Shown: in pieces, positions 2,374-18,728 of the stretch
Layout of the letters: the number at the start of each line of letters is the position of its first letter
How positions within the stretch are numbered: position 1 is the first letter of the stretch
DNA from: a virus
Length of the DNA stretch: 20,850 nucleotides
IMG/VR virus record: IMGVR_UViG_3300020020_000176
Location: 1-20,850 of that record
Reading direction: 5' to 3' (one strand)
The notes under the pieces: generated by a model
The model's input: only the letters and a program-made list of their open reading frames with translations
Told to the model about the DNA's origin: nothing
Databases searched by the model: none
Translations under genes and position numbers: made by a program

Positions 2374-2838
2374 ATGGAGAAGCCCAAGGTTGATGAGACT
2401 GAGAAGGTTCTGGAGACTGATCCGGAAAAGTATGTTGATGTAAAACTGACGGTTGCTGACAGTAAAGTCATTGCGGAACCCGAGCCCCCCTATTTTGCGA
2501 CCAAGATTCGAGTCGAGTATGTGGATGGTTTCAGTTGGCTGCTGCTGGAAGATTTGGTTTATTATTCGCTTTTGATGGGAAGGATACAGATTCCCTCAGC
2601 ATTCACCACAGACTTCAATTCAGTTCCAAGGCCGTTCTGGAGGCTTTTTCCAAAGACTCAGTATGGTCCCGCTGCTGTTGTGCATGACTATTTGTGCAAT
2701 TACGGGCTGAATATGGAGCCGAAGATTGACAGGGCTCTGGCGGATAGGATTTTTGTGGAGGCTCTGGAGATTTGCGGGGCTCCTTGGTGGAAAAGGAAGA
2801 TCATGTATCTGGGAGTCAGGATTGGAGCACTTTTGTAG
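2374..2838 (+). CDS. DUF1353 family protein, 154 aa
   Basis: ATG at 2374 is preceded by GAGGT at good spacing. Residues about 70-110 carry the hallmark of the DUF1353 family: IPSAFTTDFNSVPR, then WRLFPKTQYGPAAVVHDYLC, containing the invariant TDF.SVPR and the AAVVHDYL motif. After this comes a run of helix (DRALADRIFVEALEICG) and a hydrophobic C-terminus. The first 45 residues are an acidic extension not typical of the family. DUF1353 proteins are widespread in phages and prophages near structural and packaging genes; their biochemical role is not established as far as I know. The conserved Asp and His-Asp residues suggest a metal or catalytic site. The terminase start lies 2 nt after this stop. 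Confidence 0.9.
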   Translation: MEKPKVDETEKVLETDPEKYVDVKLTVADSKVIAEPEPPYFATKIRVEYVDGFSWLLLEDLVYYSLLMGRIQIPSAFTTDFNSVPRPFWRLFPKTQYGPAAVVHDYLCNYGLNMEPKIDRALADRIFVEALEICGAPWWKRKIMYLGVRIGALL

Positions 2839-2840
2839 GT

Positions 2841-4334
2841 ATGGTAGGTAAAGAAGAATTTTCGGTTGTGGTAGAGGACAGGGCAACGGGGAAGGAAGAG
2901 ATCCTTTACTACCCCAATCCCAAGATGGTCGCCTTTCATGAAAGTGATGCTCCCTATACGCTGAGTCATGGAGGCAGGAATTCAGGGAAGTCTACCGCTC
3001 TCAGGTGGGATGCTCATATGCGGAACTTACGCATAGACGGGCACAGGGCTTTACTTCTGCGACGGACCTTCCCTCAGCTCAGAGGGTCGCACTTCGACCG
3101 GGCCGAGGTTGAGGCGAAGAAGCTGGGAGCAAAACCTTTCAATCGCACACACCATTTTATCGAGTATCACAATGCGAGTAAGCTCCAGTTTGGTCATTGC
3201 GAGAGTGATGCTGCCATTTTAGATTATCTGAGTCAGGAGTGGGATTGGATCGGGTTTGACGAGCTGACGACCTTTACGTTTGATCAGTTCATCAGGATTG
3301 CAGGATCAGCGAGGACAACTAGGACGAGTGGGAGGAAGGCGTATGTGAGAGCCGCGACGAATCCGATTGGCACAGGAGCAAGTTGGGTCAAGCGGTATTT
3401 TATCGACAAAAGCATTACTTTTGATGAGAACGAGAAGTATGATCCGAAAGAGTGGGTAGATATTCAGGCGAATCTGGCTGATAACCCCCATGCTGATCGT
3501 CAGGAGTATGAGAGAAGGCTGTTGATGTTGCCCTCAGAAGCACTGCGGCGGGCATATAAGGATGGTGAGTGGCTGGTTGAGGGTCAGTTTTTCAGCGAGT
3601 TCAAGGAGACGAAGGAAGGAAATACGTGGCATTGTATTAGTCAACTGCCGACTTATAACGGGGTTCCGTTGCTCAAACTCGGGCACCTTGAGATCACGCG
3701 GGCTTTGGATTGGGGATATTCGGAGGCTGAGCCGGGGGTTTGTCTGTGGGTTGCTCACTTGCCCGATGGGACGGCGATTGTGATCAAGGAGTGGGTTTTT
3801 ACTAGGAAGATTCCTGAGGAGGCAGCGAGGATTATCAAGGAAAAGAGCGAGGGAATGAGGATCAGATACACGGTTTGCGACCCGAGATGTTTTCATGAGG
3901 AGATCGGGGAGAGCATTGCGGATACCTTTGCCAAGAACGGTGTGGGAATGATTGCGGCGGATAATGATAGAGAGAATGGCTGGGTAAGGGTTCATAGCTG
4001 GCTGGTTGGAGAGTATGCTGATGGAGTAATGGTGAGGCCTAGGTTGAGGTTTTTGAACCCAACTGAGCTTGGAGCAGGGTATATGGGCGCACCGTATACA
4101 ATAAGAACCTTGCCCAGCCTCCAGGTTGATCCTAAAAAGCCTTCTGATATCTCTCAGGGTGAGGGGGTTGAGGACCATGCTGCCGATGCCTTGAGATATT
4201 GGGCCATGAGCAGACCAGCTCCTTCCAGAGTAAAGATTGGAGATCCCTTTGCCAATCTACCCCCCGAACTGAGACGCCTGATTAGGGGAACGAGCGAGAG
4301 GGATGACATACTTGGCGAAGAGAGCGTGAGGTAA
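2841..4334 (+). CDS. terL: Terminase large subunit (packaging ATPase and nuclease)
   Basis: This protein drives DNA into the prohead and cuts the concatemer. I place the start at ATG 2841, 2 nt after the previous stop (497 aa); an upstream TTG at 2772 would overlap DUF1353 and is less likely. The N-terminal ATPase domain has a Walker A motif GGRNSGKS (residues about 44-51) and a Walker B with catalytic glutamate, DWIGFDE (Asp140, Glu141). The C-terminal RuvC/RNase H-like nuclease domain shows its three acidic positions: ALDWGY (Asp290), CDPR (Asp347) and the DHAADALRYW motif (Asp449). All key residues are present, so the enzyme looks active. Length is normal for the family. The portal gene follows after 4 nt. 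Confidence 0.97.
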   Translation: MVGKEEFSVVVEDRATGKEEILYYPNPKMVAFHESDAPYTLSHGGRNSGKSTALRWDAHMRNLRIDGHRALLLRRTFPQLRGSHFDRAEVEAKKLGAKPFNRTHHFIEYHNASKLQFGHCESDAAILDYLSQEWDWIGFDELTTFTFDQFIRIAGSARTTRTSGRKAYVRAATNPIGTGASWVKRYFIDKSITFDENEKYDPKEWVDIQANLADNPHADRQEYERRLLMLPSEALRRAYKDGEWLVEGQFFSEFKETKEGNTWHCISQLPTYNGVPLLKLGHLEITRALDWGYSEAEPGVCLWVAHLPDGTAIVIKEWVFTRKIPEEAARIIKEKSEGMRIRYTVCDPRCFHEEIGESIADTFAKNGVGMIAADNDRENGWVRVHSWLVGEYADGVMVRPRLRFLNPTELGAGYMGAPYTIRTLPSLQVDPKKPSDISQGEGVEDHAADALRYWAMSRPAPSRVKIGDPFANLPPELRRLIRGTSERDDILGEESVR

Positions 4335-4338
4335 TTGA

Positions 4339-6342
4339 GTGATTGATAAACCTACTTCTGCGGGAGCTTGGAAGGGACGGATCAGTGCTTGTAAAGAGCT
4401 GAGACGATCCATGCTGACGACTTGGCAGGATAATGTCAGCTATCGGAGGGGTAAGCCGTTCAGGACCAAACCTACCGATGATACTGTCAATGTGCCTCAG
4501 GACTGGAGCCGCACAAAAAATAAGCAGGCCAAGCTTTTCTATCAGGTGCCGGAGATCAAGTTAAGGCCGAGAATGCCTGAGTTTGCCGGGGCTGCGCCGG
4601 TATTTGCTTCTGCTGTCAATTTCCAGCTCACACATAAGGTCAAAGCCCACCATATGATGAACGAAGTCCTTGCCGATGTTATTAATGCGGCAGGCATAGG
4701 AGTGTGCAAGATCGGCTATGAAGGAAAGTTTGACTACAAAGAGGCCACGGTTCAACAGGAAAAGGATTATGAGGCAGACGTTTGGAAGGAAATGCAGACG
4801 GCTGGCCAGATCGAATCCATACAGACCCCTCAGGCGGTTTATGAATGCTACTATGCGCGAAGGATCAGCCCAGCACACTTTCTCTGGCCTTCAGAGTTTT
4901 CAGGGTCGGACTGGCAGGAGGCCCCGTGGCTTGGATGGGAGGGGTATTTACCCATCGCTGAAGCAAGGCGAAGAGGATGGGTAGATGCGGATTTCAAGGG
5001 TGAAGAGATTACCGATCACGAGTGGAGGCTGATCAAGGACTATGAAGAGCAGCAGAGGAGCAGCGATGCGTATGTCAGATACTCAGAAATTTTCTATCGC
5101 TGTTCTGTATATGATGAAAAGGAAAAGGACCCCCGAAAAATCAAGAGGGTTGTGATTGTCAATGGATTGCCCAATGACAAGGCCAAGGTGATCGATGAGG
5201 AGTTCAAGTGGCAGGAGTATAAGCAGGAGTCAGGGCAGTGGATTGGGATGACGACTTTCCCGATCAAAGTGCTGACTCTGACCTATATCAGTGATATGGC
5301 AGTGCCGCCCTCAGACTCAGAAATTGGCAGGCCACAGGTCAGGGAGTTGATCAGGGGCAGGAGCCAGATGGTCAGGCAGAGGGAGAGTAGCCTGCCCATG
5401 CGCTGGGTTGATGTCAACATGGTTGATGAAGAGATTGTTGATTTGATGCGAAAGGGAAAGTATCAGAACATCATCCCGATGAATGGGCCGGGGAATAATG
5501 CTATTGGAGAAGTGGCAAGGGCTCAATACGGGAGGGAGAATTTTGAGTTCGACAAGGTTGCCAAGCAGGAGTTGGATGAGGCGTGGAGCATGGGGGCTCC
5601 TCAGCAAGCCGCTCAGCAACCTGGAGAAACGACTGCGACCGAGATCAATGCCATGCAGACGGCACTGAATGAGAGGCTGGATTATGAACGATCAATGGTC
5701 CTGAGGTTTTTCATGGAAGTGGCAGAGGGAGTTGGGAGTTTGATGCAGCTCTTCTCTGATGATATGGACTATGCAGAAGTGGTTGGTCAGACTGGATTGG
5801 CCAGTCTCCAGGCATGGAACAAAGAGATGATCAGGGGGGATTTTATATTTGAAGCCAAACCTGATAGTCAGTTGAGGGTTGACGTGGGCCAAAAGAGAGC
5901 CGAAAGCTTGAACCTCTATAAGTTGCTCAGGAAAGACCCTCTCATAAATCCTCAAGGGCTTGTGCAGGAAGTTCTATTGATGCACGGAATAGACCCAACT
6001 AAAGCGATGGCTCCTCCACAGCCGCCGAAAGAAGAGCCTCCGAAGAAGTCTTACAGCTTCAAGGGGGAAGATTTGCTCAATCCGATTGTTGTAGCGATTA
6101 TTCAACAGGGGCCTGATCCTTTGACTCCGGATGATATTGCGGCTGCAAAGAAGCTGATTGAGGATGCAGCGGGGATAGAAGATCCGTCAATGGTCCCAAG
6201 CCCAGGTCAGCCTCCGAGTGAAGGAGCACCAACAGGTGAGAACCCTGAACATCCGGGGCCTGCTGATGTAGTGCAGCCCCTTAATCGACGTTACAGTGAG
6301 CAGAGCACGACTGGAGTGGAAGGTTCACGGGATTCAACATAG
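4339..6342 (+). CDS. Portal protein, 667 aa
   Basis: This is the dodecameric ring at the capsid vertex through which DNA enters and leaves. GTG start at 4339 with GAGG about 7 nt upstream; the gap from terL is 4 nt. Size (667 aa) and position (terL-portal-scaffold) are typical of podovirus-type portals. Within the protein, a stem and crown-type region around residues 420-475 contains GETTATEINAM followed by a long amphipathic helix, a pattern common to portals. The C-terminal 120 residues are proline-rich and of low complexity (PPQPPKEEPPKK, then SPGQPPSEGAP), which may form a flexible barrel or tail. The N-terminal domain is rich in Trp and Tyr. Assignment rests on synteny, size and the TATE motif. 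Confidence 0.88.
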   Translation: MIDKPTSAGAWKGRISACKELRRSMLTTWQDNVSYRRGKPFRTKPTDDTVNVPQDWSRTKNKQAKLFYQVPEIKLRPRMPEFAGAAPVFASAVNFQLTHKVKAHHMMNEVLADVINAAGIGVCKIGYEGKFDYKEATVQQEKDYEADVWKEMQTAGQIESIQTPQAVYECYYARRISPAHFLWPSEFSGSDWQEAPWLGWEGYLPIAEARRRGWVDADFKGEEITDHEWRLIKDYEEQQRSSDAYVRYSEIFYRCSVYDEKEKDPRKIKRVVIVNGLPNDKAKVIDEEFKWQEYKQESGQWIGMTTFPIKVLTLTYISDMAVPPSDSEIGRPQVRELIRGRSQMVRQRESSLPMRWVDVNMVDEEIVDLMRKGKYQNIIPMNGPGNNAIGEVARAQYGRENFEFDKVAKQELDEAWSMGAPQQAAQQPGETTATEINAMQTALNERLDYERSMVLRFFMEVAEGVGSLMQLFSDDMDYAEVVGQTGLASLQAWNKEMIRGDFIFEAKPDSQLRVDVGQKRAESLNLYKLLRKDPLINPQGLVQEVLLMHGIDPTKAMAPPQPPKEEPPKKSYSFKGEDLLNPIVVAIIQQGPDPLTPDDIAAAKKLIEDAAGIEDPSMVPSPGQPPSEGAPTGENPEHPGPADVVQPLNRRYSEQSTTGVEGSRDST

Positions 6343-6356
6343 GAGTGATTTAGTTT

Positions 6357-7313
6357 ATGGATATGTCAGAAGTGATTACTCAGAGTCTTGAAGGCACTGA
6401 AGGACGAGAGGAAGAGCCCCGAGAGCAGGAAGAGCAGGAAGCTCCGGTTGAAGTAGAGCCTCAGCCTCAGACTCCAAGCCCCGAGGAAGAAGCCGAGGAG
6501 GCTGAGATTGCCAAGTTGCAGCAGGAGCTTGCGGCTGCAAATCCCAAGCTTCAGGGGAAGATCGATGTTCCACGGCATCAGGCAGTGCTGACGAGGACTC
6601 GGAATCAGTATGAGGCGAAACTCAAAGAGGCTCAGGAAAGGTATGAGAAGGTCAAGTGGGCTGAGGAGAAGGAAGCTCAGGCTGCGCTCCAGGCCTTGGC
6701 ATTGGCTGAAAGTGATCCTAAGGCCTTTGTAGAGCTGTTGATGAAGGATAAGCGGTATGGGGATCTGCTTCAGTTCAAGGAGATCAGGGAAAAGGCTGAG
6801 GAGATTGCTCAGCGTCCTCAACCAAATGCAGCGACTCCCGATGGCCAGTTTCAATACTACGATGACAAGGGGATTGAAGAGCTATTGGGTTGGCACGGTC
6901 AGCAGATCGAATCCGGGCTGATGAAGAAGCTGGAAGCGAGGTTCGGGCCGATTGAACAGAGGTATAAGTCGGAAAAAATCTGGAATGAGGCAAGAGAGAG
7001 AAACAGGGTAGTTTTGGAAGGTGCAAGGAAGAGCTGGAAGGGTTTCAATGAGAATGAACAGGCGATTGGTCAGTTTTTGAGTAAGAACCCTCAAGCGACC
7101 TTGCATGATGCCTATAGGGAGGTTGTCATTCCTGCACTGGAAGCTCAAGGTCGGGCGAATAAGGAGGCTTTGAGGAAAGAGATTCTGGCTGAAATGTCCA
7201 AGAAGCCCAAAGCGAATACTGAAGATACAAGGGTTGAGGCAGAAAGAGTGGCAGATGAGGGCGGGAAGCGATCGGTTGCTGATATTGTTCGGGCTAATTT
7301 GCCGAGGGAATAA
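6357..7313 (+). CDS. Capsid scaffolding protein, 318 aa
   Basis: ATG at 6357 (a second ATG at 6363 is possible), with AGGAG about 11 nt upstream. The N-terminal 55 residues are extremely acidic and proline-rich (REEEPREQEEQEAP and similar). Residues about 50-125 form a predicted coiled coil (AEIAKLQQELAAANPKL, then KLKEAQERYEKVKWAEEKEA), and further charged helices follow. This composition, with no cysteine and almost no globular core, is the signature of internal scaffolds that shape the prohead. Scaffolds normally bind the major capsid protein through a basic C-terminal helix; here the C-terminus has a KRSVADIVRANLPRE segment. Unusually, the capsid gene does not follow; it lies about 10.5 kb downstream. 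A minor alternative is an internal head protein. Confidence 0.82.
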   Translation: MDMSEVITQSLEGTEGREEEPREQEEQEAPVEVEPQPQTPSPEEEAEEAEIAKLQQELAAANPKLQGKIDVPRHQAVLTRTRNQYEAKLKEAQERYEKVKWAEEKEAQAALQALALAESDPKAFVELLMKDKRYGDLLQFKEIREKAEEIAQRPQPNAATPDGQFQYYDDKGIEELLGWHGQQIESGLMKKLEARFGPIEQRYKSEKIWNEARERNRVVLEGARKSWKGFNENEQAIGQFLSKNPQATLHDAYREVVIPALEAQGRANKEALRKEILAEMSKKPKANTEDTRVEAERVADEGGKRSVADIVRANLPRE

Positions 7314-7582
7314 TGAATTTGAATGAAATTCCTTTGATTGGGCAGACTCATGCGGTTCATGCAGGGGATTGTTCGGCTGTAGTGACTTGTTTATGTAAGC
7401 CGGGGAATAGCCCCTTTTTGATCCCCTCTACTCAGGTTCAGGTGATGTGTAATGCGTGTAAGGGTATTTATCGGCTTATGGGAGCGATGTTTGATGCTCA
7501 GAAGTCGTCAACCCCTATTGTGGCAGTGGCACAGGTGGGAAGATTGGTCGTTGAAGACGAGCCTCAACCTACTGTAAACTAA
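7313..7582 (+). CDS. Small CxC/CxxC protein, 89 aa
   Basis: The start ATG overlaps the previous TAA as TAATG (7311-7315), so translation is coupled to the scaffold. Cysteines are at 20, 26 and 28 (CLC) and at 46 and 49 (CNAC), which would make a zinc-ribbon-like site with strands on either side (QVQVMCNACKGIYRLMG). The C-terminus is a hydrophobic strand region and a short acidic tail. No family recognised. Phages often carry such small metal-binding proteins in the head gene block; the role is unknown. Confidence 0.75.
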   Translation: MNLNEIPLIGQTHAVHAGDCSAVVTCLCKPGNSPFLIPSTQVQVMCNACKGIYRLMGAMFDAQKSSTPIVAVAQVGRLVVEDEPQPTVN

Positions 7583-7594
7583 TTTTCAAGGTTC

Positions 7595-9670
7595 ATGATG
7601 CACAGACTCAAAACAATTCTCTCTCTCGCCCTTTTCATGCTGATCCCGACTACGGTCTGGGCTCAGTTCCCATTACAGACAATTGGATCGATTCTGCCAA
7701 GGTCAGCAGCCGATACTCTGACGAGTCAGGGGGATTGTTCTGTTCCTGTAACGACATTTGGTTTTCCTGGGTTTGGCTTTCAGATCACAGGATCATTCGA
7801 TGCGACGGTGCAGTTTGAGGTTAGCTCTGATGGGTCAAACTACCGGCCCCTCAATGTCGTAGCTTCAAACAGCAGCACTCCCTCGACAACGACCACTGTG
7901 GTTGGGATGTATACAGGATCGTTTACAGGTGCAAGCCATATCCGGGCATGTGCGACTGTCTATGCATCAGGAACAGTGACAGTGGTTGCTTCTGCCACGC
8001 TGGGAGGAGGATCTGGAGGAGCTGGCGGGGGAGGGGGTTCGGTGACTCAGTTTCCCGAAGACGGCGGGCACACGACAGGGGATAGTGGTGTGCAGTTTTT
8101 GGCGGTCAGGAATGACGCAGGGACAGTGCTGGCGGGGACGACACTTGACTACATTCCACTCACCACTGATGCCACTGGAGCGTTGAGGGTTGCGGTTACT
8201 GCGGCTGCGGGAGGAACGAGTTCGACGTTTGGAGCTGCGGTTCCTTCTCAGGGCACAGCGGTTGGGTTCAGTGACGGCACCAACATGGTTTCTGCAAGGG
8301 CCTTTGATACAGATACTTCAGGCGGGGTGTTTACCACTCTGCTGACAAATCTGGTTTTCAGGACAGCGGGCACTCCTGTTGAGGCTGGTATAGCGGCTAA
8401 TCCTTTCAATGTCGTGTTTCCCAGTGCTCAGGCAGTTACTCAATCAGGAACTTGGAACGTCGGGACTTTGACGACGGTTACTAATCCGGTTGCGGTGACT
8501 CAAAGTGGCACATGGACGAATAACGTCGGCACCTTTCCTGACAATGAACCCTTCAATCTCGCACAGTGTGCGGGAGTTACGTGTCTAACTGGTAATGGAG
8601 CTTCTGGCACAGGGGCTTTGAGGGTCACAGTAGCCAATGATTCCACAGGAACAATCATCGCGTCACAGGCGACAGCAGCGAATTTGAATGCTCAGGTTGT
8701 TGGCACAGTGGCGGTAGATGGAGCAGTCAGCGGGAATCCGGTGCCGTCTAGTTATCGAGCCTCCACAGCGGTGCCGACGGCAGTCTCCGCAGATAACGAT
8801 GTGCAGCTTGGATGGGTGACGAGGATTGGGCTGTTCAATTCTGCGCTGAGGGATCTGGCCGGGGATAGTGCGATGGATGAAACCAACAATGCACTGAGAG
8901 TCAATGTGGTGACAGGAGCGGGAGGAGGAGCGAATATTGTTGACGATGCGCCCTTCACTGTCGCGGTAACTTCCTTGACTCCTGTTGGCGGCATATTCAG
9001 GACTGCACTAGACACAGTTGATGACAACGATTCAGGAGCGTTTGCCATGACTCAACGGAGAGCATTGCACATGAGCCTGAGGAGAGAAAGTGATGGGGCT
9101 GAGTGGGGAGTGGCGGCGACTGCTCCTGTAGCAGTGCGTTTCTCAGACGGATCAAGCTTCCTTAATCTTGCTAGCGATTGCACCCACGATTCTGCGGTCT
9201 GTGCGTCTGGCCCGGTAAAGATGTTGGAAGCGGTGAGTGATCTGAGTGCCAATACGCCTGTTGCTGATGGCGATGCGGTGAGAGCGGTTGGGGATTTGAA
9301 TGGAAGGGCAATTCAGATCATTGGGTGTGACAGGTCAGCAGCGGTTGGAGGGGTGACAACCATTACTGATGGATCGAGCACCGCAGCAACAGGCTTTGCG
9401 GCACAGGGAGCAAGCATTTTCAATGAAGTCAGAAATGTAACGATTGTAAATACATCAACGACTCCTGTGACAGTGGATATGAGAGATGGAACTGCGGGGT
9501 CGGTGCTTTATACCTTCCCGGTTCCTGCCTCCACAGATAACACGCATGGTGGTGTGACGATGAATTTCACAGTGCCTCGTTATGGAACTGCCAACACACC
9601 GATTGCCTTTGATCCCTCAGCAGCAGCTACAAGCATCATTATCTCGGCCACTGGATGCAAGGTGAAGTAA
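7595..9670 (+). CDS. Large beta-rich protein with secretion signal, 691 aa (putative surface or virion-fibre protein)
   Basis: ATG at 7595 (or 7598) with AAGG upstream. The N-terminus is a textbook Sec signal: MMHRLKTILSLALFMLIPTT then VWA/Q, with cleavage likely after Ala23. The mature protein is Ser/Thr/Gly/Ala-rich beta sequence. A Gly-rich linker near residue 140 is followed by strand repeats such as AVTQSGTW (two copies around residues 280-305) and FSDGTN / FSDGSS (near 225 and 515). The C-terminal 100 residues (VDMRDGTAGSVLYTFPVPAS and after) match a beta-sandwich seen in phage structural proteins. It starts a chain of three signal-bearing genes joined by TAATG overlaps. Virion proteins do not usually have signal peptides. 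Either it is exported from the host, or the hydrophobic end has another role. Confidence 0.8.
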   Translation: MMHRLKTILSLALFMLIPTTVWAQFPLQTIGSILPRSAADTLTSQGDCSVPVTTFGFPGFGFQITGSFDATVQFEVSSDGSNYRPLNVVASNSSTPSTTTTVVGMYTGSFTGASHIRACATVYASGTVTVVASATLGGGSGGAGGGGGSVTQFPEDGGHTTGDSGVQFLAVRNDAGTVLAGTTLDYIPLTTDATGALRVAVTAAAGGTSSTFGAAVPSQGTAVGFSDGTNMVSARAFDTDTSGGVFTTLLTNLVFRTAGTPVEAGIAANPFNVVFPSAQAVTQSGTWNVGTLTTVTNPVAVTQSGTWTNNVGTFPDNEPFNLAQCAGVTCLTGNGASGTGALRVTVANDSTGTIIASQATAANLNAQVVGTVAVDGAVSGNPVPSSYRASTAVPTAVSADNDVQLGWVTRIGLFNSALRDLAGDSAMDETNNALRVNVVTGAGGGANIVDDAPFTVAVTSLTPVGGIFRTALDTVDDNDSGAFAMTQRRALHMSLRRESDGAEWGVAATAPVAVRFSDGSSFLNLASDCTHDSAVCASGPVKMLEAVSDLSANTPVADGDAVRAVGDLNGRAIQIIGCDRSAAVGGVTTITDGSSTAATGFAAQGASIFNEVRNVTIVNTSTTPVTVDMRDGTAGSVLYTFPVPASTDNTHGGVTMNFTVPRYGTANTPIAFDPSAAATSIIISATGCKVK

Positions 9671-10377
9671 TGAACAGGCTCAGGAAACTTCTCCTCCCAC
9701 TGATCCTGATCAGTTGGGTAGGGGTGTTGTATGCAGCGGTGTTTGTGAATGACACTTTTACCGATGCAGATAATGTGAACATTGTGGATCACACGCCTGA
9801 CAGTGGTGGAGTGTGGACTAATGGCTCTGTTTGTTTCTCCCAATTGCCAGTAAGCGATCACGATGACATTTACCATCTCAGCGATCTGAACGGCTGCACG
9901 GTTTTCAATGATCAAGCTCCGAACAGTGCTGAGTATAACGTCCAGGTCGATCTCGTTTTCCATTCAGGGAGCGTTGCGGATTATTCTCTGGGAGTGTCTG
10001 GAAGAGCGGCTTCGGCAGCAGAGACTTACTATGCTTGTGCCTACAACGGATTTGAGAATGAATGGACCCTTTATAAAGCTGTGGCGGGGACCTTTACAGG
10101 GTTGGATGGAGAAGCGGCAAGTATCAGTTCAGGGAATACTTATACCATCAGGTTGGAGATAACTGATGCGCTCAAGACCTGTTTTGTGGACGAAGTTGAA
10201 GTAGCTTCTTCGGCGGATAATGCAATTACAGCAGCAGGGTTTGCAGGTTTGAACAGCTACCGAGAGACTAACATCGGCGGGATGCACTTCGATAACTTCT
10301 CAGCTTTCGATATTGAGGCTCCAGTTGGAGGCACAAAAGGTAAGAGGCTTCTGTTGCTAGGGGTAGGTGGAAAGTAA
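9670..10377 (+). CDS. Secreted LamG-like (concanavalin fold) protein, about 235 aa
   Basis: The frame is open from 9655, but ATG 9670 overlaps the previous TAA as TAATG and has AAGGTG upstream, so I take that start. A signal peptide is clear: MNRLRKLLLPLILISW then VGVLYA, cleavage likely after Ala22. The mature part (residues 24-220) looks like a LamG or concanavalin-like jelly roll: it begins with FVNDTFTDADN, includes the strand YTIRLEITDALKTCFVDEVEV, and ends HFDNFSAF. Such domains bind carbohydrate or act as beta-sandwich modules. The protein ends in a basic, glycine-rich tail (GGTKGKRLLLLGVGGK). The C-terminal domain of the next gene appears to be a distant relative. A receptor or sugar-binding function is inferred, not shown. 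Confidence 0.78.
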   Translation: MNRLRKLLLPLILISWVGVLYAAVFVNDTFTDADNVNIVDHTPDSGGVWTNGSVCFSQLPVSDHDDIYHLSDLNGCTVFNDQAPNSAEYNVQVDLVFHSGSVADYSLGVSGRAASAAETYYACAYNGFENEWTLYKAVAGTFTGLDGEAASISSGNTYTIRLEITDALKTCFVDEVEVASSADNAITAAGFAGLNSYRETNIGGMHFDNFSAFDIEAPVGGTKGKRLLLLGVGGK

Positions 10378-13040
10378 TGAGACGTTTCAGGGTTCTTTTA
10401 GTTCTCCTTGCTCTTGCAGTGATTGTTCCTACCAAGGTCAGCACGAGGCGCACGATCTTCAATCTTGCGAATTGTAATCAAAGCACCCTCGCCAGTGCTG
10501 TTTCATCGGCGGTTGACGGGGATACGATCAATCTCCCCACCTGCGCCGTGAATTGGTCCTCTGGCATCTTCGTTAACAAGTCGATCACGATCCAAGGCGC
10601 CGGAATGACCAGCACAGTCATCACCAGCACAGAGGTTCCAGTCGGGGGTGTCCTGCAACCGATGATCGATTGGAACACCAAGAGCACGGGAAATACTCCT
10701 GCCGGTTTTACCAAGCTAGCAAATCTGACTTTAAATGGAGGATCTGGGGGTGAGGGAGGCAACCAAGTCCCCATGCTGCGACTGAGCGGCAACAGCGGGC
10801 GCGTCGTCATCCTCGGCGTCCACATCGTCCAGACTCGCCAAGAAGGTTTCCGCGCTACCGGCTATGTGCGCGGGGTCTACGCTAACGGTGCCCTGACCCA
10901 CAACGGCTTTTTCGGCGTGTCCATGCGAGTTGAGCACGAGAATTGGGGGGATCACAGCGGTGTCGGTGGAACAGGATGTGGAGGGTGTGGTGACAAGTCG
11001 TGGTCAGAGCCCTCCTCGCTGGGCACCGATCAAGCTTTCGTCTTCGAGAACAACGTCTTCATCGACAACACCGGACTCGCGGGACTGGCCTTCCTCGGCG
11101 ATGGCTGGAGCGGCTTGCGCGTCGTGTGGCGGTTCAACGAGATCCGCAACACCCAGACCGGCAACCACGGCCTAGATTCCGGTGGGCGCTTCCGCAGCGC
11201 ACGCCAATGGGAGTATTACCGCAATACCATCATCAACGATGTCTTCGTAGATGGAGTGTTCGGCACTCGCGGCGGCACGGGGCTCGTGTTCGACAACACC
11301 GTGTCAGTCACGGGAGGAGGAGGCGCGAACAAAATCTTCAGCATGTCGAGCTACCGGAACAATCCAGCTCCGACAGGCGGGGTAAGGGCCTCTTATTGGC
11401 CTTGGAGTCGATGCAGCATTCTACCCGTCAGCTCTATTACCCGCTCTGGCACCACTGCGACCCTCACGACCGATGGTGGAGACGGCACTGGACATTGGAG
11501 ATGTGCGCGCTCGGGGCTCTCGTGCGATGGTGCCGTGTTCGCCCAGTCCAGCAGACCGTGGATCGAAGTGCGAGGCGCATCAGACTCTCTCTATAACGGG
11601 GTGTTTCAGGTTGACGATACGCCAACCAGCACTACCATCACTTACACGATGCCGGGAACTCCTGCTGCGAATGCATCAGGCACCTTGACACTACGCTCTC
11701 CCTTCGATCAGAACGCAGAAGCATCCGGCTACCGCTGCATGGATCAGGTAGGCTCCGGTCAGCAGAGCACCATGATCAGCGGCGTGAACCCAACCCCAGG
11801 CTCATTCACAGAAGCCCTTGAGCCGGTCTACATCTTCAACAATATCTATAATGGTTCCCTCCAGAGCGCATCCGTGGTTCATGGCTCGGGGGCGACGGTC
11901 GAGAACCGTGAATACTACAACCAAGCCACGTCGTTCAATGGCACGGTAGGAGTTGGTAGGGGAGTCATCGCCTCTCGCCCCGCAACCTGCACGACAGGGG
12001 TTTCGTATTGGGCGACTAATGAAGGCGAATGGGACTCGACCAACGGGGCAACCCCTGATGGAAGGCTTTACAAATGCACCGCGACGAACACTTGGACGCT
12101 GTTCTACACGCCTCTGGCCTATCCTCATCCTTTGCTGAGCGGTGCCGTGCCCGAGAGCCCAGTCGTCATCATCACGTCACCAACGAGCGGCGATCACTAC
12201 GACACACTCACGTCCTCGGTCACAATCACCGGCACGGCTACTGATGATGTGTCTGTTAACTCGGTCAGCTACTCCAGTGATCGTGGTCCGTCAGGCTCGT
12301 GCTCGTTTGCTTCGCCGCCTAACTTCTCATGCTCCAGCATTTCACTCTCATCTGGCGTGAATGTCATCACAGGCACGGCTACTGATGGCACGCTGCAAGG
12401 CACAGACATACTCAACGTCCTTTTCCTTGCGGCCAACATTGATGAGTCTGATAACTTCGACAGGGCTAATTGGCCAACCTTAGGCCCGTGGTGGACACAG
12501 CTTGGCACTTCCAGCCCGTATGCGATTGCCAGTAACTTTGCGGTGGGAGTTGGGTCTAACTTCGACTGTGCGGCTTGGAACCAATTCAGCTTCAATGATG
12601 ATCAGTTCTCAGAAGCTACAATAGGATTTGTTGCTGATACCACTAATGCGGTCAGGGTTGCGGTTAGGATTAGCGGTTCAGGAGCATCGCATAACAGTTA
12701 CTTTTTGAGCACCGACGGTTTGAGTGGGAGTGGGCATACTTTTATTGGCAAGTTCATTGGTGGTTCGCTTGAAGTATTGCAGGACATTGCAACAACCTTC
12801 ACTGCGGGAGATGTCATGAGCTTGGAGGTTGCAGGATCAAACCTGAAGGCTTTCAAGAACGATGTGCAGATTGGAATTGATCAAGCAACAGGTGGTCAGT
12901 TGACTTCGGGCTCAGCGGGGCTATGCTTTTATGGAGCTGCTTCGTCACTCAACAATTGGAGTGGTGGTAATCTGGAGGAAGGTCCACCTGACCCCCCTCT
13001 AGGAACCGGGATAGTAAGATTCAGGCGTGGTGGAGGATAA
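10377..13040 (+). CDS. Secreted right-handed beta-helix / Ig-like / LamG-like mosaic protein, 887 aa
   Basis: ATG overlaps the previous TAA (TAATG). Signal-like N-terminus: MRRFRVLLVLLALAVIVP, but no clear cleavage site. Domains in order: a pectin-lyase-like right-handed beta-helix beginning TIFNLANCNQSTLASAVSSA with GDTINLP and ITIQGAG strands (about residues 27-370); a mixed region to about 600 with an aromatic cluster near 545-590; a bacterial Ig-like domain (PVVIITSPTSGDHY to ILNVLF, about 594-685); and a LamG-like domain (NFDRANWPTLG onward, about 690-870). It ends in a basic tail (TGIVRFRRGGG). Beta-helices often bear depolymerase activity in phage tailspikes, but no catalytic residues can be fixed here. 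Codons in 10440-12400 are GC-richer than those of the neighbours, a sign of acquisition from another source. Confidence 0.82.
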   Translation: MRRFRVLLVLLALAVIVPTKVSTRRTIFNLANCNQSTLASAVSSAVDGDTINLPTCAVNWSSGIFVNKSITIQGAGMTSTVITSTEVPVGGVLQPMIDWNTKSTGNTPAGFTKLANLTLNGGSGGEGGNQVPMLRLSGNSGRVVILGVHIVQTRQEGFRATGYVRGVYANGALTHNGFFGVSMRVEHENWGDHSGVGGTGCGGCGDKSWSEPSSLGTDQAFVFENNVFIDNTGLAGLAFLGDGWSGLRVVWRFNEIRNTQTGNHGLDSGGRFRSARQWEYYRNTIINDVFVDGVFGTRGGTGLVFDNTVSVTGGGGANKIFSMSSYRNNPAPTGGVRASYWPWSRCSILPVSSITRSGTTATLTTDGGDGTGHWRCARSGLSCDGAVFAQSSRPWIEVRGASDSLYNGVFQVDDTPTSTTITYTMPGTPAANASGTLTLRSPFDQNAEASGYRCMDQVGSGQQSTMISGVNPTPGSFTEALEPVYIFNNIYNGSLQSASVVHGSGATVENREYYNQATSFNGTVGVGRGVIASRPATCTTGVSYWATNEGEWDSTNGATPDGRLYKCTATNTWTLFYTPLAYPHPLLSGAVPESPVVIITSPTSGDHYDTLTSSVTITGTATDDVSVNSVSYSSDRGPSGSCSFASPPNFSCSSISLSSGVNVITGTATDGTLQGTDILNVLFLAANIDESDNFDRANWPTLGPWWTQLGTSSPYAIASNFAVGVGSNFDCAAWNQFSFNDDQFSEATIGFVADTTNAVRVAVRISGSGASHNSYFLSTDGLSGSGHTFIGKFIGGSLEVLQDIATTFTAGDVMSLEVAGSNLKAFKNDVQIGIDQATGGQLTSGSAGLCFYGAASSLNNWSGGNLEEGPPDPPLGTGIVRFRRGGG

Positions 13041-13469
13041 ATGGCTGATATTGTTACCAACAAGTGTAAGTTTGAGTTGTTTACAGGGGATGCGAACCTT
13101 GATGCAGCAGATTTGAGGATTCTACTCCTGACCACGGCTGGATCGGTCACAGCAGATACGAATTTTGTCAGCGATATCGTGGCAAATGAACTATCGGTTG
13201 GAGGGTATGCGAGACATACTCTGGCTGGAGAGACGGTCACTGAGGACGATACCAATGACTTTGCCTATCTGGATGCGACTGATGCGTTGTTTGCAGCACT
13301 GGCAGCAGGGCAGACCATTGGATGGGGAGTGTTGTTCAGGCATACGGGAGCTGATGGCACGGCTCCGGTGTATGCGGGGTATGACATTACCGATACTCCG
13401 ACCAATGGTGGAGATGTGACATTACAGTGGGCAACACCGGCTAACGGTGGACTTTTGAAGGGTGCATAG
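13041..13469 (+). CDS. Small beta-rich virion-type protein, 142 aa
   Basis: ATG directly follows the previous TAA, with GGAGG just upstream. The sequence (KCKFELFTGDANLDAADLRILLLTT, then YARHTLAGETVTEDD and a C-terminal beta strand) resembles small phage structural proteins often annotated as hypothetical next to tail or fibre genes. There is no signal peptide and no cysteine pair (one Cys at 9). The pattern of alternating strands suggests a small beta barrel. The gene lies between the secreted trio and a series of short genes with tight spacing. A role as an attachment or collar protein is possible, but not shown. Confidence 0.7.
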   Translation: MADIVTNKCKFELFTGDANLDAADLRILLLTTAGSVTADTNFVSDIVANELSVGGYARHTLAGETVTEDDTNDFAYLDATDALFAALAAGQTIGWGVLFRHTGADGTAPVYAGYDITDTPTNGGDVTLQWATPANGGLLKGA

Positions 13470-13860: not shown

Positions 13861-14583
13861 ATGGCGTTCCCGACTGTAGTTACTACAGCAATTACTGATG
13901 GCACCACTGCAACTGCCACTCCAGCGATCAATTTACCCGGATCTCTTGTATCAGGTAATTTAATCTTCGCGGTGATCAGAACTGAAGTTGCGGGGACGAT
14001 TACGTGGCCAGTAGGCTGGACTCCACCACTGTTTGAGGGGAGTCCTGACGCGGATTCGGGTCATTCCAGTTTCGCGTGCAAGCTGTCAAACGGGGGCGAG
14101 GGAGGGACTGTTGTTCTGGGGAGCGGGAATGGTAAGTTTGCAGGATCGGCTTATCAAATCAACGGAGCTGAAGTCCCTGCGATTCAGTTGCCTGAACTTT
14201 CAACCGTGGCGATTGGCACAGATGCACTCCCTAATCCAACTACCTGCACACCAACAGGCGGGGCGAAGGATTACCTGTGGATTTTCGTCAATACTCATGA
14301 GGGTGAACAGGTCAGTCCACCGGCAGCGAACCCGACCAACTACTCCTCGAATAAGATTGGCGGGGACAGTGGCACGGCTGGAGCAGTCACAACCAACTGT
14401 CGAGTAGCATTGATTACTCGCACTAATAATGCGGCAAGTGAAGATGCGGGTTCGTGGACTATCAGTGCTTCTGGCAATTGGTCAGCATGGGTAGTTGCAG
14501 TTCACCCAGCAGCTCCAGTAGTAGCGGCTGCTTGGCTACCGGGAAGAGCGTCACAAGGGCAGTTTGCGAGATTGAGGAGATAA
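13861..14583 (+). CDS. Beta-sandwich virion or fibre-type protein, 240 aa
   Basis: ATG at 13861 with GGAGGAGTAGGAG immediately upstream. The sequence is almost entirely beta strand: INLPGSLVSGNLIFAVIRTE, TITWPVGWTPP, then KFAGSAYQINGAEVP and a later SWTISASGNWSAWVVAVHP strand. This arrangement, with a GNLIF strand and a WPxGWT motif, recurs in phage fibre-associated and bacterial surface proteins of unknown function. There is no signal peptide. The protein ends in a basic tail (LPGRASQGQFARLRR). Likely part of the particle surface, by context only. Confidence 0.7.
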   Translation: MAFPTVVTTAITDGTTATATPAINLPGSLVSGNLIFAVIRTEVAGTITWPVGWTPPLFEGSPDADSGHSSFACKLSNGGEGGTVVLGSGNGKFAGSAYQINGAEVPAIQLPELSTVAIGTDALPNPTTCTPTGGAKDYLWIFVNTHEGEQVSPPAANPTNYSSNKIGGDSGTAGAVTTNCRVALITRTNNAASEDAGSWTISASGNWSAWVVAVHPAAPVVAAAWLPGRASQGQFARLRR

Positions 14584-14584
14584 G

Positions 14585-15055
14585 ATGCAAGGACGAATGT
14601 ATACGGTGACGATTTCTGGAGTGGCCAGTCCTGCGACGGCTTTTGACTTTCTGGAGATCGTTCCTGCGACTGCCAAGCCGATCAGACTGCGAAGGATTGT
14701 GATTGCTCAAACAACTGAGCCAACGACTGAAGAAGAGCAGTTGGCAATGACGGTTGTGAGGGGTCATGCTACGAGTGGTTCAGGTGGAGATACGACTCCC
14801 GATGGGGGGCCTCTGAATTCAGTGACTCCAGCAGCGGGTTATACGGCAGAGACAATGAACACAACCATTGCCTCCACCGGCACTCCGATCAATCTGGTTG
14901 AGGATGCATGGAACACACGAGCTGGGAGAGATTTGGCGTTTGCTCCCGAAGAGGCTCCAGAAGCGGTCAATGGTGAGAGGTTGGTAGTGAGATCGAGTGC
15001 TCCTGCTGATGCTGTGACCATTCGAGCGACTTTCTGGATCGAGGAACTTGGCTAA
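14585..15055 (+). CDS. Phage structural-type protein, 156 aa
   Basis: ATG at 14585 has GAGGAG upstream; an internal ATG four codons on (MYTVTISG) is possible. The sequence follows a pattern I recall from small phage virion proteins: MYTVTISGVAS, then DFLEIVPATAKPIRLRRIVIAQ, then VVRGHATSGSGG, TTIASTGTPI and ERLVVRSSAPADAVTIRATFWIEE. These features suggest a beta-sandwich with a conserved RGH and TTIAS. The last 8 nt overlap the next start. Exact role in the particle is not known. Confidence 0.78.
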   Translation: MQGRMYTVTISGVASPATAFDFLEIVPATAKPIRLRRIVIAQTTEPTTEEEQLAMTVVRGHATSGSGGDTTPDGGPLNSVTPAAGYTAETMNTTIASTGTPINLVEDAWNTRAGRDLAFAPEEAPEAVNGERLVVRSSAPADAVTIRATFWIEELG

Positions 15056-16079
15056 TAGCTACGTCTATCGTAGACCGTATAGAAGGCCCCCTCCACGGGG
15101 GCTGATTCTCCCTGTTGACAATGCGACCACTCTGGTTGCAGGGACTCCGACTGTTACATTTTCGACTCCAGCAGCGACAAGAGTGGCTGGAGTTTCGACC
15201 GCAGTAACGGGGACTCTTGTAGTTACAATTACCAATCCTGCTGTGACTAGGCTGGCCACGATCACTAGGGTGACAGGCACGCTGACGGCGACGATTACAG
15301 CAGGGGCGGTTACTACAGTGCCAGGGAACAGCACAAGAGTTGCAGGGACTCCGACAGTTATAGTCACAGCTCCTTCTCTCACTACAATTCCAGGTGGAGT
15401 GACGAGGGTTGCCAATCCCCCTACGATGATTCTCACTGCTCCTTCAGTAGTGAGATTGGCGACGATTTCACTCCTTCAGGGAGCTGGATTGGTGACATTC
15501 AGTGCTCCAACAGCGGTAAGGACGGCTGCTGTTACGAGGACCGCTGGAGCACCTACATTGGTGATCAGTGCCCCAACCCAAGCGGTTAACACAGGGGGAG
15601 GGAATCAGGACATTGAGGCTGGGGCTCCCTTTGTGACCTTTACAGTAGGGGCAGTGACTACGACAGCGGTAAGGACCGCAGTGGCAGGGGCACCTACCAT
15701 TACCTTCACCAATCCGGCTTTGGTGAGACTAGCAGCGGTGACGAGGGTTCAGAATGCTCCTACAGTGACGTTCAGTGCTCCAGCAATTGTGACCGTGCCG
15801 ACAGCGGTAAGATCAGCAGGGACTCCAGTGGTGACGTTTACCAACTTGGGGAGTGTGAGGACGACTGCAAAGACTCTGCTTCAGGGGGCAAATACGATTG
15901 TGTTCAGTGCCCCTGCTGCAACCAAATCGACCACGACTACAGTGCTCACAGGCAGTCAGACAGTTGTTTTTTCAACAGGTGCAGGGTTGACTGTGGTTGG
16001 AGGAGATCAGATCCCTCAGCTTCATGTGGGAAGATATCGGTATCGGTATAGTTATGGAATGGTGACTAAGGATGACTAG
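15048..16079 (+). CDS. Tandem-repeat beta protein, 343 aa
   Basis: No ATG fits near the frame start. A TTG at 15048, inside the end of the previous gene, is preceded by GAGGAA, and it gives ANSYVYRRPYRRPPPRG as the N-terminus. Residues 28-316 are about 13 tandem repeats of 22-23 residues with the pattern G-x-P-T-V-x-F-S-x-P-A-x-x-R. The repeats are Thr/Val/Ala-rich and lack charged residues apart from periodic Arg. A Gly-Gly-Gly insertion at 183-185 interrupts the array. The ends are Arg/Tyr/Pro-rich, and the C-terminal part reads HVGRYRYRYSYGMV. The repeat length suits a beta-solenoid or a string of small strands, as in fibre shafts. Its stop overlaps the next gene. Function unknown. Confidence 0.78.
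   Translation: MANSYVYRRPYRRPPPRGLILPVDNATTLVAGTPTVTFSTPAATRVAGVSTAVTGTLVVTITNPAVTRLATITRVTGTLTATITAGAVTTVPGNSTRVAGTPTVIVTAPSLTTIPGGVTRVANPPTMILTAPSVVRLATISLLQGAGLVTFSAPTAVRTAAVTRTAGAPTLVISAPTQAVNTGGGNQDIEAGAPFVTFTVGAVTTTAVRTAVAGAPTITFTNPALVRLAAVTRVQNAPTVTFSAPAIVTVPTAVRSAGTPVVTFTNLGSVRTTAKTLLQGANTIVFSAPAATKSTTTTVLTGSQTVVFSTGAGLTVVGGDQIPQLHVGRYRYRYSYGMVTKDD
15129..15995 (+). repeat. Protein-level tandem repeat array (about 13 units of about 66-69 nt)
   Basis: The coding repeats are well diverged at DNA level, but conserved in amino acid pattern (VAGTPTVTFSTPAATR-type). Examples are units at residues 28-50, 98-120, 189-209, 233-250 and 300-318. Divergence of codons between units suggests an old array held by selection on the protein, not a recent slippage product. 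Confidence 0.8.
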
Positions 16080-17018: not shown

Positions 17019-17093
17019 TGGCGAAGGAGCAAGGATTCGAACCCTGATTGCAAGATTTTGGAGATCCGCCGATTGCCTTTATCTTACTCCCTC
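17019..17093 (-). tRNA. tRNA-Trp (anticodon CCA)
   Basis: The acceptor GAGGGAG pairs with CTCCTTC (one G-U), followed by G and an encoded CCA. The anticodon loop CTCCAAA gives anticodon CCA, the Trp codon UGG. The T-arm is CAGGG TTCGAAT CCTTG (one G-U). The D-stem has 3 good pairs with one A-G mismatch, and the anticodon stem has one C-U mismatch and one G-U pair, so the gene is somewhat degenerate yet complete. Total length 75 nt including CCA. It lies 6 nt after tRNA-Pro. Confidence 0.88.
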
Positions 17094-17099
17094 ACAAAT

Positions 17100-17174
17100 T
17101 GGTGGAGAATGAAAGGTTTGAACTCCCGATCCTTCGCTCCCAAAGCGAATGCCTTACCGCTCGGCTAATTCTCC
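17100..17174 (-). tRNA. tRNA-Pro (anticodon TGG)
   Basis: The acceptor GGAGAAT/ATTCTCC is perfect, followed by A and an encoded CCA. The D-arm is GCC..GGC, and the anticodon stem TTCGC/GCGAA is perfect, around loop TTTGGGA. Anticodon TGG reads CCA and, with modification, other proline codons. The T-arm GGGAG TTCAAAC CTTTC has two G-U pairs. Length 75 nt including CCA. It sits between tRNA-Asn and tRNA-Trp in the leftward unit. Confidence 0.93.
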
Positions 17175-17227
17175 AAAAACTTTGGGCAGATAGGAGCGAC
17201 CTACAGGGAGCCTCACCTTTGATGCTT

Positions 17228-17268
17228 ATGGGGCACTGTATCGTCATACAGTCGATCTCGACACCCAT
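17228..17268 (-). other. Structured intergenic element between tRNA-Pro and tRNA-Asn
   Basis: Positions 17228-17232 (ATGGG) can pair with 17264-17268 (CCCAT). Inside is a perfect 7-bp hairpin, ACTGTAT (17235-17241) with ATACAGT (17246-17252), and an alternative 5-bp hairpin, GTCGA (17251-17255) with TCGAC (17258-17262). It has no usable anticodon loop and no T-arm, so it is not a tRNA. It could be a small RNA, a processing signal in the tRNA precursor, or a degenerate tRNA remnant. No other gene is visible in 17175-17310. Confidence 0.35.
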
Positions 17269-17310
17269 CAATTCTACGGGCCTCTCTCCCCTTGCTGCCT
17301 AAACTCAAAA

Positions 17311-17385
17311 TGGCTGTGAGAGCTGGGATCGAACCAGCGACTACATGATTAACAGTCATGCGCTCTACCGCTGAGCTATCTCACA
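17311..17385 (-). tRNA. tRNA-Asn (anticodon GTT)
   Basis: The acceptor TGTGAGA pairs with TCTCACA over 7 bp, followed by G and an encoded CCA. The D-arm is GCTC..GAGC, the anticodon stem CATGA/TCATG surrounds loop CTGTTAA (anticodon GTT), and the T-arm is GCTGG TTCGATC CCAGC, perfect. Length 75 nt. The 5' end lies at the end of a T-run that follows a GC-rich hairpin (see the terminator candidate), so the gene begins where a terminator would end. Confidence 0.94.
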
Positions 17386-17429
17386 AAAAACGCGGGGGGA
17401 AAGTTCTAGTAGTAGGCTCTCCTCCCCGC
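17385..17429 (-). terminator. Terminator-like hairpin between tRNA-Thr and tRNA-Asn (leftward)
   Basis: Read leftward, GCGGGG (17429-17424) pairs with CCCCGC (17397-17392), GGA (17422-17420) pairs with TCC (17400-17398), and one base is bulged, around a 19-nt loop. One G and then six T (17390-17385) follow, the layout of a rho-independent terminator. The T-run runs into the first base of tRNA-Asn. It could set the amount of downstream tRNAs relative to tRNA-Thr or help 5' processing. The remaining gap up to 17517 holds no gene I can support. Confidence 0.5.
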
Positions 17430-17517
17430 TATCCCCTTGAGGCTATCCATCAGAGCTACTATGAAGGACCGCTCTCCAAGCTTAGCAATGGCTTTGTTTA
17501 GGGGAATCTCAAAATTA

Positions 17518-17593
17518 TGGAGCCACCTGAGGGGATCGAACCCCCGACCGGCTGATTACAAATCAGCAGCTCTGCCTGCTGAGCTAAAGTGGC
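17518..17593 (-). tRNA. tRNA-Thr (anticodon TGT)
   Basis: The acceptor GCCACTT pairs with AGGTGGC (one U-G), followed by T and an encoded CCA. The D-arm is GCTC..GAGC; the anticodon stem GCTGA/TCAGC is perfect around loop TTTGTAA, giving anticodon TGT (reads ACA). The T-arm is GGGGG TTCGATC CCCTC. Length 76 nt. It is the first gene of the leftward tRNA unit, about 18 nt after the expected transcription start. Confidence 0.95.
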
Positions 17594-17792: not shown

Positions 17793-18728
17793 ATGGCACT
17801 AACGATTTCACAGATCGTTGCCTCCAGCTATAACGCTGTTGTAGCAGAGCGCAAAAAGCCTGCCAATCAGTGGGAAGAGTCAGCCATGATCCGCGAGATG
17901 AAGCGGCAAGGTATGGTTGAGTCTATTCCCGGTGGTCCTCAGATTGAGGCACCGCTCGACTATCGCCGGAATCCAGGCGCGGAATTCAACCTGCTTGACC
18001 TTGATCCATTGGTCATGGGCAAGACAGACGTTGTGACTGCCGCGATCTACGACCCCGCTCAGGTGTCGATTCCGGTTGTGTGGTCTAAGGCAGACGAGAG
18101 CAAGAACCCTACAGAGAACCAGAAGATCAACTTTGTCAGTAATTTGCTGACAAACGCTCTGGCCTCTCACGATGACCTTTTCGAGCAGAACATCTTTGCG
18201 GTAAGCAATGCTGCATTTTTGGGCCTCCAGACTCAGATTCCTGATTCCGGTCAGGGCACAGTTGGAGGGATCAATGCTGCGGTGGAGCTGTGGTGGAGGC
18301 ATTTTACCGGCACCTATGCTGCGGCAGGCACAGACCTGATCGCGAAGATGGCGATTGCGTTCAACACGGCCCAGAAGGGAACAGGCGGGCAGGGGCCTTC
18401 TCTGATTGTTTCGGATGCCGAGACACAGGGGACATTTGAAGGCACACAGCAGCCCCTTCAGCGGTGGGTTGACTCTCAGGATTTGAAGGCTGGGTTTAAG
18501 ACTCTGGCTTACAAGTCTGCACGATACATCTATTCGCAGTTCGGCAACAATCGAATCTACTTCCTCTCCAACAAGGGTGTTGGGCTGAAGTATTTCGAAG
18601 GGGCCATGAGGCAGAAGGGTGATACTCAGGAGATCAACAATGCTCAGGGTTATCGCTTCTTCATTCATTCGATGGCACAGTTGATTGTGACCATGAAGTC
18701 TCGGAATGCGATTCTGACAGAAGTCTAA
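17793..18728 (+). CDS. Major capsid protein (probable HK97 fold), 311 aa
   Basis: It builds the head shell. ATG at 17793 with GAGGA 7 nt upstream. The order of features fits the HK97-fold capsid proteins of podo- and siphoviruses: a charged helical N-arm (residues 1-45), an E-loop-like region (about 50-100, with PLDYRRNPGAEFNLLDLDP), a long spine-type helix around 110-135, and the segment QTQIPDSGQGTVGGINAAVELWWRHF (in pieces at 145-170), whose GTVGGI...WWR pattern is typical of a large capsid group. The C-terminal part has P-domain-like strands (KSARYIYSQFGNNRIYFLS, FIHSMAQLIVTM). Length is normal. Its own promoter, leader and terminator fit a highly expressed gene. Scaffold lies far upstream. 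Confidence 0.93.
   Translation: MALTISQIVASSYNAVVAERKKPANQWEESAMIREMKRQGMVESIPGGPQIEAPLDYRRNPGAEFNLLDLDPLVMGKTDVVTAAIYDPAQVSIPVVWSKADESKNPTENQKINFVSNLLTNALASHDDLFEQNIFAVSNAAFLGLQTQIPDSGQGTVGGINAAVELWWRHFTGTYAAAGTDLIAKMAIAFNTAQKGTGGQGPSLIVSDAETQGTFEGTQQPLQRWVDSQDLKAGFKTLAYKSARYIYSQFGNNRIYFLSNKGVGLKYFEGAMRQKGDTQEINNAQGYRFFIHSMAQLIVTMKSRNAILTEV

Follow-up and report, generated by a model that had tools for sequence, protein, structure and literature searches.

What would three consecutive genes with secretion-type N-termini be doing inside the virion block of a tailed phage, when particle assembly in such phages is regarded as entirely cytoplasmic? The question is raised by a 20,850-base linear virus record of IMG/VR (hereafter the window), which comes from an uncultured phage and was analysed as DNA sequence alone. 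The three genes are called P1, P2 and P3 below, and together the cassette.

Organisation of the cassette

The late block of the window runs through the genes for the terminase large subunit (TerL), the portal, a scaffold-like protein and a Cys-rich protein, then P1 to P3, small structural-type genes and the capsid. The genes upstream of the cassette (2772..7313, plus strand) comprise TerL (2772-4334), which matches phrog_2, the portal (4339-6342), which has no PHROG match and was named by its position and by homologues in relatives, and the acidic scaffold-like protein (6357-7313), likewise assigned by position. Between scaffold and P1 lies a gene for a small Cys-rich protein (7313-7582, 89 aa), possibly zinc-binding (CLC...CNAC), for which family searches gave no match. 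P1 (7595..9670, plus strand, 691 aa), described here from the ORF list, its translation, an alignment of relatives and structure prediction, is followed on the same strand by P2 (9670..10377, 235 aa, or 240 aa from an alternative start at 9655) and P3 (10377..13040, 887 aa). A sequence-only reading of this DNA had reported three consecutive ORFs of these lengths joined by TAATG; both junctions, 9668..9672 (TAA 9668-9670, ATG 9670-9672) and 10375..10379 (TAA 10375-10377, ATG 10377-10379), are exact, which confirms that the genes are tightly coupled within the late block. These overlaps point to late, coupled expression. The boundary after P3 has no such overlap, P3 ending at 13040 and its downstream neighbour beginning at 13041. 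Promoter- and terminator-like sites around the cassette were at shuffled background, the genes overlapping or adjoining one another.

The gene directly after P3 (13041..13469, plus strand) encodes a phrog_644 homologue, whose counterpart in a related contig, L091, lies beside the portal. Seven small structural-type genes fill the interval between P3 and 16730. A 343-aa protein encoded at 15048-16079 has about ten Thr/Val-rich internal repeats of the RVAGTPTVTFSAPAVTR type and gave no match in family searches. A cluster of four tRNA genes (Trp, Pro, Asn and Thr; 17019-17593), on the minus strand opposite to the late genes, separates the accessory genes from the capsid gene, and a Leu tRNA is found at 1473-1563. 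The major capsid protein (17793..18728, plus strand) matches phrog_9953 (2e-21) and is followed by decoration- and tail-type genes.

Signal peptides were called with a home-made rule-based predictor that weighs n-region charge, h-region hydrophobicity and the -3/-1 rule. On calibration genomes it returned exactly Lom, Rz and Bor for lambda, nothing for T7, and Rz plus one antisense ORF for P22. In the window it flagged P1, P2 and P3 and no other among 29 non-overlapping ORFs; all three have a positive n-region and a hydrophobic h-region of 10-15 residues. The signal peptide of P1 (residues 1-23, 7595..7663, plus strand) is predicted to be cleaved at VWA↓Q (MMHRLKTILSLALFMLIPTTVWA↓QFPLQ), and AF2 modelled residues 2-15 confidently as a helix. 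That of P2 (residues 1-22, 9670..9735, plus strand) ends at LYA↓A (MNRLRKLLLPLILISWVGVLYA↓AVFVN), a site read by eye, the script having given a later, implausible one. P1 and P2 thus carry sites of the A-X-A type. P3 begins with MRRFRVLLVLLALAVIVPTKVST... (10377..10448, plus strand) and has no canonical cleavage site, which makes this segment either an atypical signal or a candidate signal anchor; the P3 homologue at L017:9833-12235 (28% identical) has a canonical site, AEA↓ACTG. No lipobox, such as might mark an exclusion protein of the Llp/Cor type, was found at the N-termini of the three proteins. The occurrence of three adjacent signal-peptide genes is beyond chance, and the earlier description of secretion-type N-termini, clear for the first two proteins, agrees with these predictions. 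Its suggestion of a membrane-associated coat found no support beyond the lack of a clear cleavage site in P3.

P1 consists, in order, of the signal peptide, an N-terminal beta domain, a Gly-rich linker, VTQSGTW-type repeats, a domain holding the family motif FPDNEPFN (8534..8557, plus strand, from the alignment) and a C-terminal beta domain; the mature protein has 8 Cys. Behind its signal peptide P2 has 4 Cys and what looks like a lectin domain of the ConA/LamG type, judged from weak matches below the cut-off to the GH59_C lectin and DUF6250 families. P3, with 14 Cys, comprises a putative beta-helix-like region, a Cys-paired segment (TCTTG..YWAT..YKCTATNTWTLFYTP), a Big_7 Ig-like domain (PF17957; residues 595-640, 12159..12296, plus strand; 24.8 bits against a cut-off of 24.1) and a C-terminal ConA-like part. 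The beta-helix assignment is read from sequence pattern, because Pfam, NCBIfam, PDB sequence searches and a profile comparison with other cassette proteins all gave no confirmation. A P3 match to a lambda-type decoration protein in the PDB sequence search (E 0.16) was at chance level and was set aside, and the scan for P3 relatives returned only L017, already known. The structure prediction that had been called for was run on P1 and P3 and was poor for both. The P1 model, built with 23 relatives, had a pLDDT of 46.5, its usable parts being the N-terminal helix and some of the C-terminal beta domain, and a viral fold search with it gave weak matches only; the P3 model, built with one homologue, had a pLDDT of 28 and was discarded. 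Searches of Pfam, NCBIfam and PDB sequences found no catalytic domain in P1, P2 or P3, and none of the three matched a tail-fibre PHROG. The part of P3 between 10450 and 12160 has a GC content of 58% (GC3 67%), compared with about 50% in the flanking sequence, a step that suggests a mosaic gene and is consistent with a separate origin.

The P1 family and the cysteine pattern

Relatives of P1 were collected from 38 IMG/VR loci and a few annotated phages. They share a segment of 52 residues containing FPDNEPFN, in which 8 residues are invariant across 21 phage sequences, an invariance that arises partly by selection because FPDNEPFN was one of the search seeds. The motif occurs in 39 viral contigs, as compared to 3 contigs in 84,980 bacterial and archaeal genomes; the family is, as far as motif occurrence indicates, almost exclusively a phage one, and a host origin of P1 is unlikely. 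The three contigs from the genome scan are MAG contigs and were not used for host assignment. When all in-frame starts were examined, about 28 of 36 distinct contigs encoded a P1 with a signal peptide, some ten of these calls depending on a downstream start chosen for its signal peptide or, for n-regions devoid of positive residues, on reading by eye; with uncorrected ORF starts the figure was 15 of 34 P1 genes.

Export signals also cluster around P1. With uncorrected starts, 18% of genes at most three genes away from P1 had a signal peptide, compared to 4.6% of those further away (Fisher p = 7e-6). Further signal-peptide genes lay within four positions of P1 in 21 of 28 signal-plus contigs but in only 1 of 8 signal-less ones, and in that single case the neighbour was an antisense ORF. 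The two forms differ at their N-terminus as well: signal-less P1s possess a MADN-type N-terminal domain, which we infer to serve virion attachment and which is absent from signal-plus P1s. A gene of the window itself, on the plus strand at 13861..14583, belongs to another such family. Its 240-aa product has no signal peptide and starts MAFPTVV, which coincides with the mature start of signal-plus homologues in L026 (50% identity, FA↓FPTVA) and L014 (YA↓AFPTL); this family shows a switch between signal-plus and signal-less forms directly.

The cassette is accessory. Three relatives of the window phage, L002 (TerL 58%, portal 55% and capsid 56% identical), L091 (portal 49% and capsid 64%, with a copy of 13041-13469 that is 77% identical) and L092 (TerL 61%), are all partial contigs. 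No signal-peptide gene appears in the available sequence of any of them, a stretch that for L002 and L091 spans the portal-to-capsid interval.

Cysteine counts provide an independent line of evidence for export. In exported bacterial proteins that form disulfides the number of Cys tends to be even, a property used for predicting DsbA substrates (PMC7678975). Mature signal-plus P1s contain 4, 6, 8, 10 or 12 Cys, the window P1 with its 8 among them. The count was even in 26 of the 27 signal-plus P1s having any Cys (binomial p 4e-7), and the eight signal-less P1s had 0, 1, 0, 0, 1, 1, 3 and 0 Cys (Mann-Whitney p 7e-5), p-values that are indicative only because family members share ancestry. Among signal-less proteins taken from these contigs as controls, the count was even in 94 and odd in 127. 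Two signal-plus members, in L055 and L065, lack paired Cys. A corresponding loss was seen for P2, whose four Cys are missing at the aligned positions in signal-less homologues of Rhizobium phage X3_15 and Microcystis phage Mvi-Yong1342-1. Cys parity, the matched signal-plus and signal-less homologues and the co-occurrence of export signals give good support to the prediction of real export into an oxidising compartment.

Some features of individual contigs were recorded alongside. L065 is an AT-rich contig with four strong signal peptides followed by Gln at +1 (ANA↓Q, SNA↓Q, ANA↓Q and VNS↓Q). This fits the Q-rule prediction for a Bacteroidetes host, the rule being specific to Bacteroidetes (PMC5837995). 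Gln at +1 is found in many signal-plus P1s, and the Q-rule was dropped as evidence for them since most of these contigs look non-Bacteroidetes. The same Bacteroidota-type phage contig encodes, at L065:16463-18649, a 729-aa signal-peptide protein that ends in a domain matching Por_Secre_tail (PF18962, type IX secretion sorting) with a score above the Pfam cut-off. Because the gene adjoins an integrase-like ORF at the contig end, it could be cargo or flanking host DNA.

Fibre kinship and the site of action

Signal peptides, Cys pattern, coupling, accessory status and the fibre kinship of the family are thus supported by sequence, and the proposals for function that follow differ in where the proteins would act. 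Our preferred reading, to which we give about even credence, is that the cassette is an accessory set of exported, beta-rich proteins resembling fibres and adhesins or lectins, made late and masking receptors or matrix at lysis rather than residing inside the particle. P1 to P3 would be made together with the late virion genes and exported by the host Sec pathway, signal peptidase I cleaving P1 and P2, and P3 being either exported or membrane-anchored. The proteins would fold outside the cytoplasm, probably with disulfides, and may attach to glycans of the infected cell, either on its surface or extracellular. Most likely, receptors and matrix would in this way be occupied or altered before and at lysis, and the progeny would not be stuck to the infected cell or its debris. 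Receptor masking is preferred for the window because its signal-plus P1 lacks the N-terminal domain of the signal-less members.

That same absence weighs against the next reading, which we hold as possible but unlikely: that the proteins are virion fibres which, once exported, become oxidised and form trimers in the periplasm or outside the cell, and attach to particles at or after lysis as receptor-binding fibres. Such assembly has, to our knowledge, no precedent in tailed phages. It is made a serious reading by ctLwi270 (L046), a complete circular genome with the same layout as the window, namely portal, P1, a lectin and a pectin-lyase-like protein, P1 and both others having signal peptides. 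Six recognisable fibre-like genes of ctLwi270 encode signal peptides: P1, a 197-aa protein, a Laminin_G_3 lectin, a GH28/pectate-lyase-like protein, a 164-aa fibre-like protein and a PF07484 collar protein, the signal peptides of the lectin and the 164-aa protein being read by eye. The last of the six is a canonical tail-collar fibre (L046:13349-14374, minus strand) encoded directly behind the tail-hub gene; its signal peptide, MIVLVLLFLLLSISSADA↓GTIT, is followed just past the cleavage site by a fibre-type N-terminal stretch, FNGDIDTIYSEFNGNISNANI, and its N-terminus is secure because the gene begins within the stop of the gene before it. None of the fibres recognised in ctLwi270 clearly lacked a signal, but several of its virion genes have no assigned function and may include one for a signal-less receptor-binding protein. 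All clearly recognisable fibre genes of this phage being signal-plus, the pattern suits decoys no better, and perhaps less well, than it suits virion fibres that are assembled after export.

Kinship with fibres extends to other contigs. In the phage of L061 and L062 the order is TerL, portal, P1, a signal-plus 257-aa protein, scaffold and capsid, followed by signal-plus proteins of 251 and 813 aa, a 106-aa protein and a signal-plus protein of 738 aa. The 813-aa protein has a Beta_helix domain and matches tail-fibre PHROGs 863 and 6202, and the 738-aa protein matches tail-fibre PHROG 892. The tail fibre of cyanophage KBS-S-2A, a distant homologue, is signal-less, and it counts in favour of the virion-fibre reading. 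In its general form, the proposal that some tailed phages export receptor-binding fibres via Sec, form their disulfides outside and use them at lysis to finish the virion or to cover the host surface, part of the phage being assembled extracytoplasmically, seems to us rather doubtful.

Secreted lectins or polysaccharide-degrading enzymes acting on the matrix, as auxiliary carbohydrate genes that would nourish the infected cell or loosen polysaccharide outside it, are improbable. This proposal is favoured by ctLwi270, L012, L022 and L061, whose equivalent genes have GH28/pectate-lyase, Laminin_G_3 and Beta_helix domains; the lack of a detected enzyme domain in P1 to P3 and the fibre-like rather than enzyme-like character of P1 count against it, and a late virion operon is an odd place for a metabolic gene. 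The sequence-only reading had proposed adhesins or polysaccharide-acting proteins. The weak lectin match of P2 and the domains found in ctLwi270 keep this plausible, but no enzyme domain in the cassette backs the enzymatic half. Still less probable are lysogenic-conversion genes (morons) which, like lambda lom and bor, would alter the surface of the lysogen. Lom is itself a signal-peptide protein encoded among the lambda tail genes, and the cassette, not seen in the three partial contigs L002, L091 and L092, is accessory as a moron would be, but its genes are translationally coupled in the late block with no flanking space, the surrounding promoter- and terminator-like sites do not rise above background, and the window contains no integrase. 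That the hydrophobic N-termini are no export signals and P1 to P3 are ordinary virion fibres assembled in the cytoplasm, as their virion-block position and the existence of signal-less family members might suggest, is very improbable in view of the A-X-A sites, the Cys parity and the Cys loss in signal-less homologues.

Relation to known phage proteins

Single exported phage envelope proteins (Lom, Bor, Llp) and signal-less fibres with these domains are already known. Our searches of the open-access literature yielded no account of a tailed phage whose virion block holds a cassette of exported fibre-like proteins from translationally coupled genes, and no description of a fibre-like family that occurs in exported disulfide-type and non-exported forms. 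The signal-less, Cys-poor and the signal-plus, even-Cys forms of one family constitute a natural experiment, and to judge from the P1 family, passage of fibre-like proteins through Sec late in infection may be common among environmental phages, with receptor masking, work on the matrix or fibre assembly outside the cell as suggested uses. Target proteins of phage diversity-generating retroelements (DGRs) have been stated to lack signal peptides, and this was used as support for a phage-tail origin (PMC6199706). A signal peptide alone should not serve to dismiss a gene as non-viral. The location of the cassette in the virion block stands as previously described; the contradiction then seen between export and that location needs qualifying because of the lom precedent and because the homologues include signal-less virion-type fibres.

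The cassette resembles phage tail fibres and tailspikes, such as PF07484 collar fibres and the pectin-lyase tailspikes of Rhizobium phage RHph_X3_15, which occupy the same virion-block position and share related repeat, lectin and beta-helix domains, the P1 and P2 families including signal-less phage members. P1 departs from them in that a signal peptide replaces the N-terminal domain of the signal-less P1s, and the cassette in its paired Cys and the lack of tail-fibre PHROG matches. Secreted carbohydrate-active genes of soil viruses resemble the equivalent genes of the relatives in their beta-helix/GH28-like and lectin domains, whereas P1 to P3 have no enzyme domain, P1 no enzyme match at all, and the genes are coupled to virion genes. 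Lambda Lom and Bor are likewise signal-peptide envelope proteins of a tailed phage, Lom being encoded between tail genes; these are morons, Bor a lipoprotein and Lom an outer-membrane protein, whereas the window holds three translationally coupled, fibre-like genes of a late operon. The superinfection-exclusion lipoprotein Llp of phage T5 is exported, blocks the receptor FhuA and prevents adsorption to fragments of lysed cells (PMC9586334). Its mode of action may, by analogy, be a guide to that of the cassette, although Llp is a small lipoprotein made early whereas P1 to P3 are large, late and not lipoproteins.
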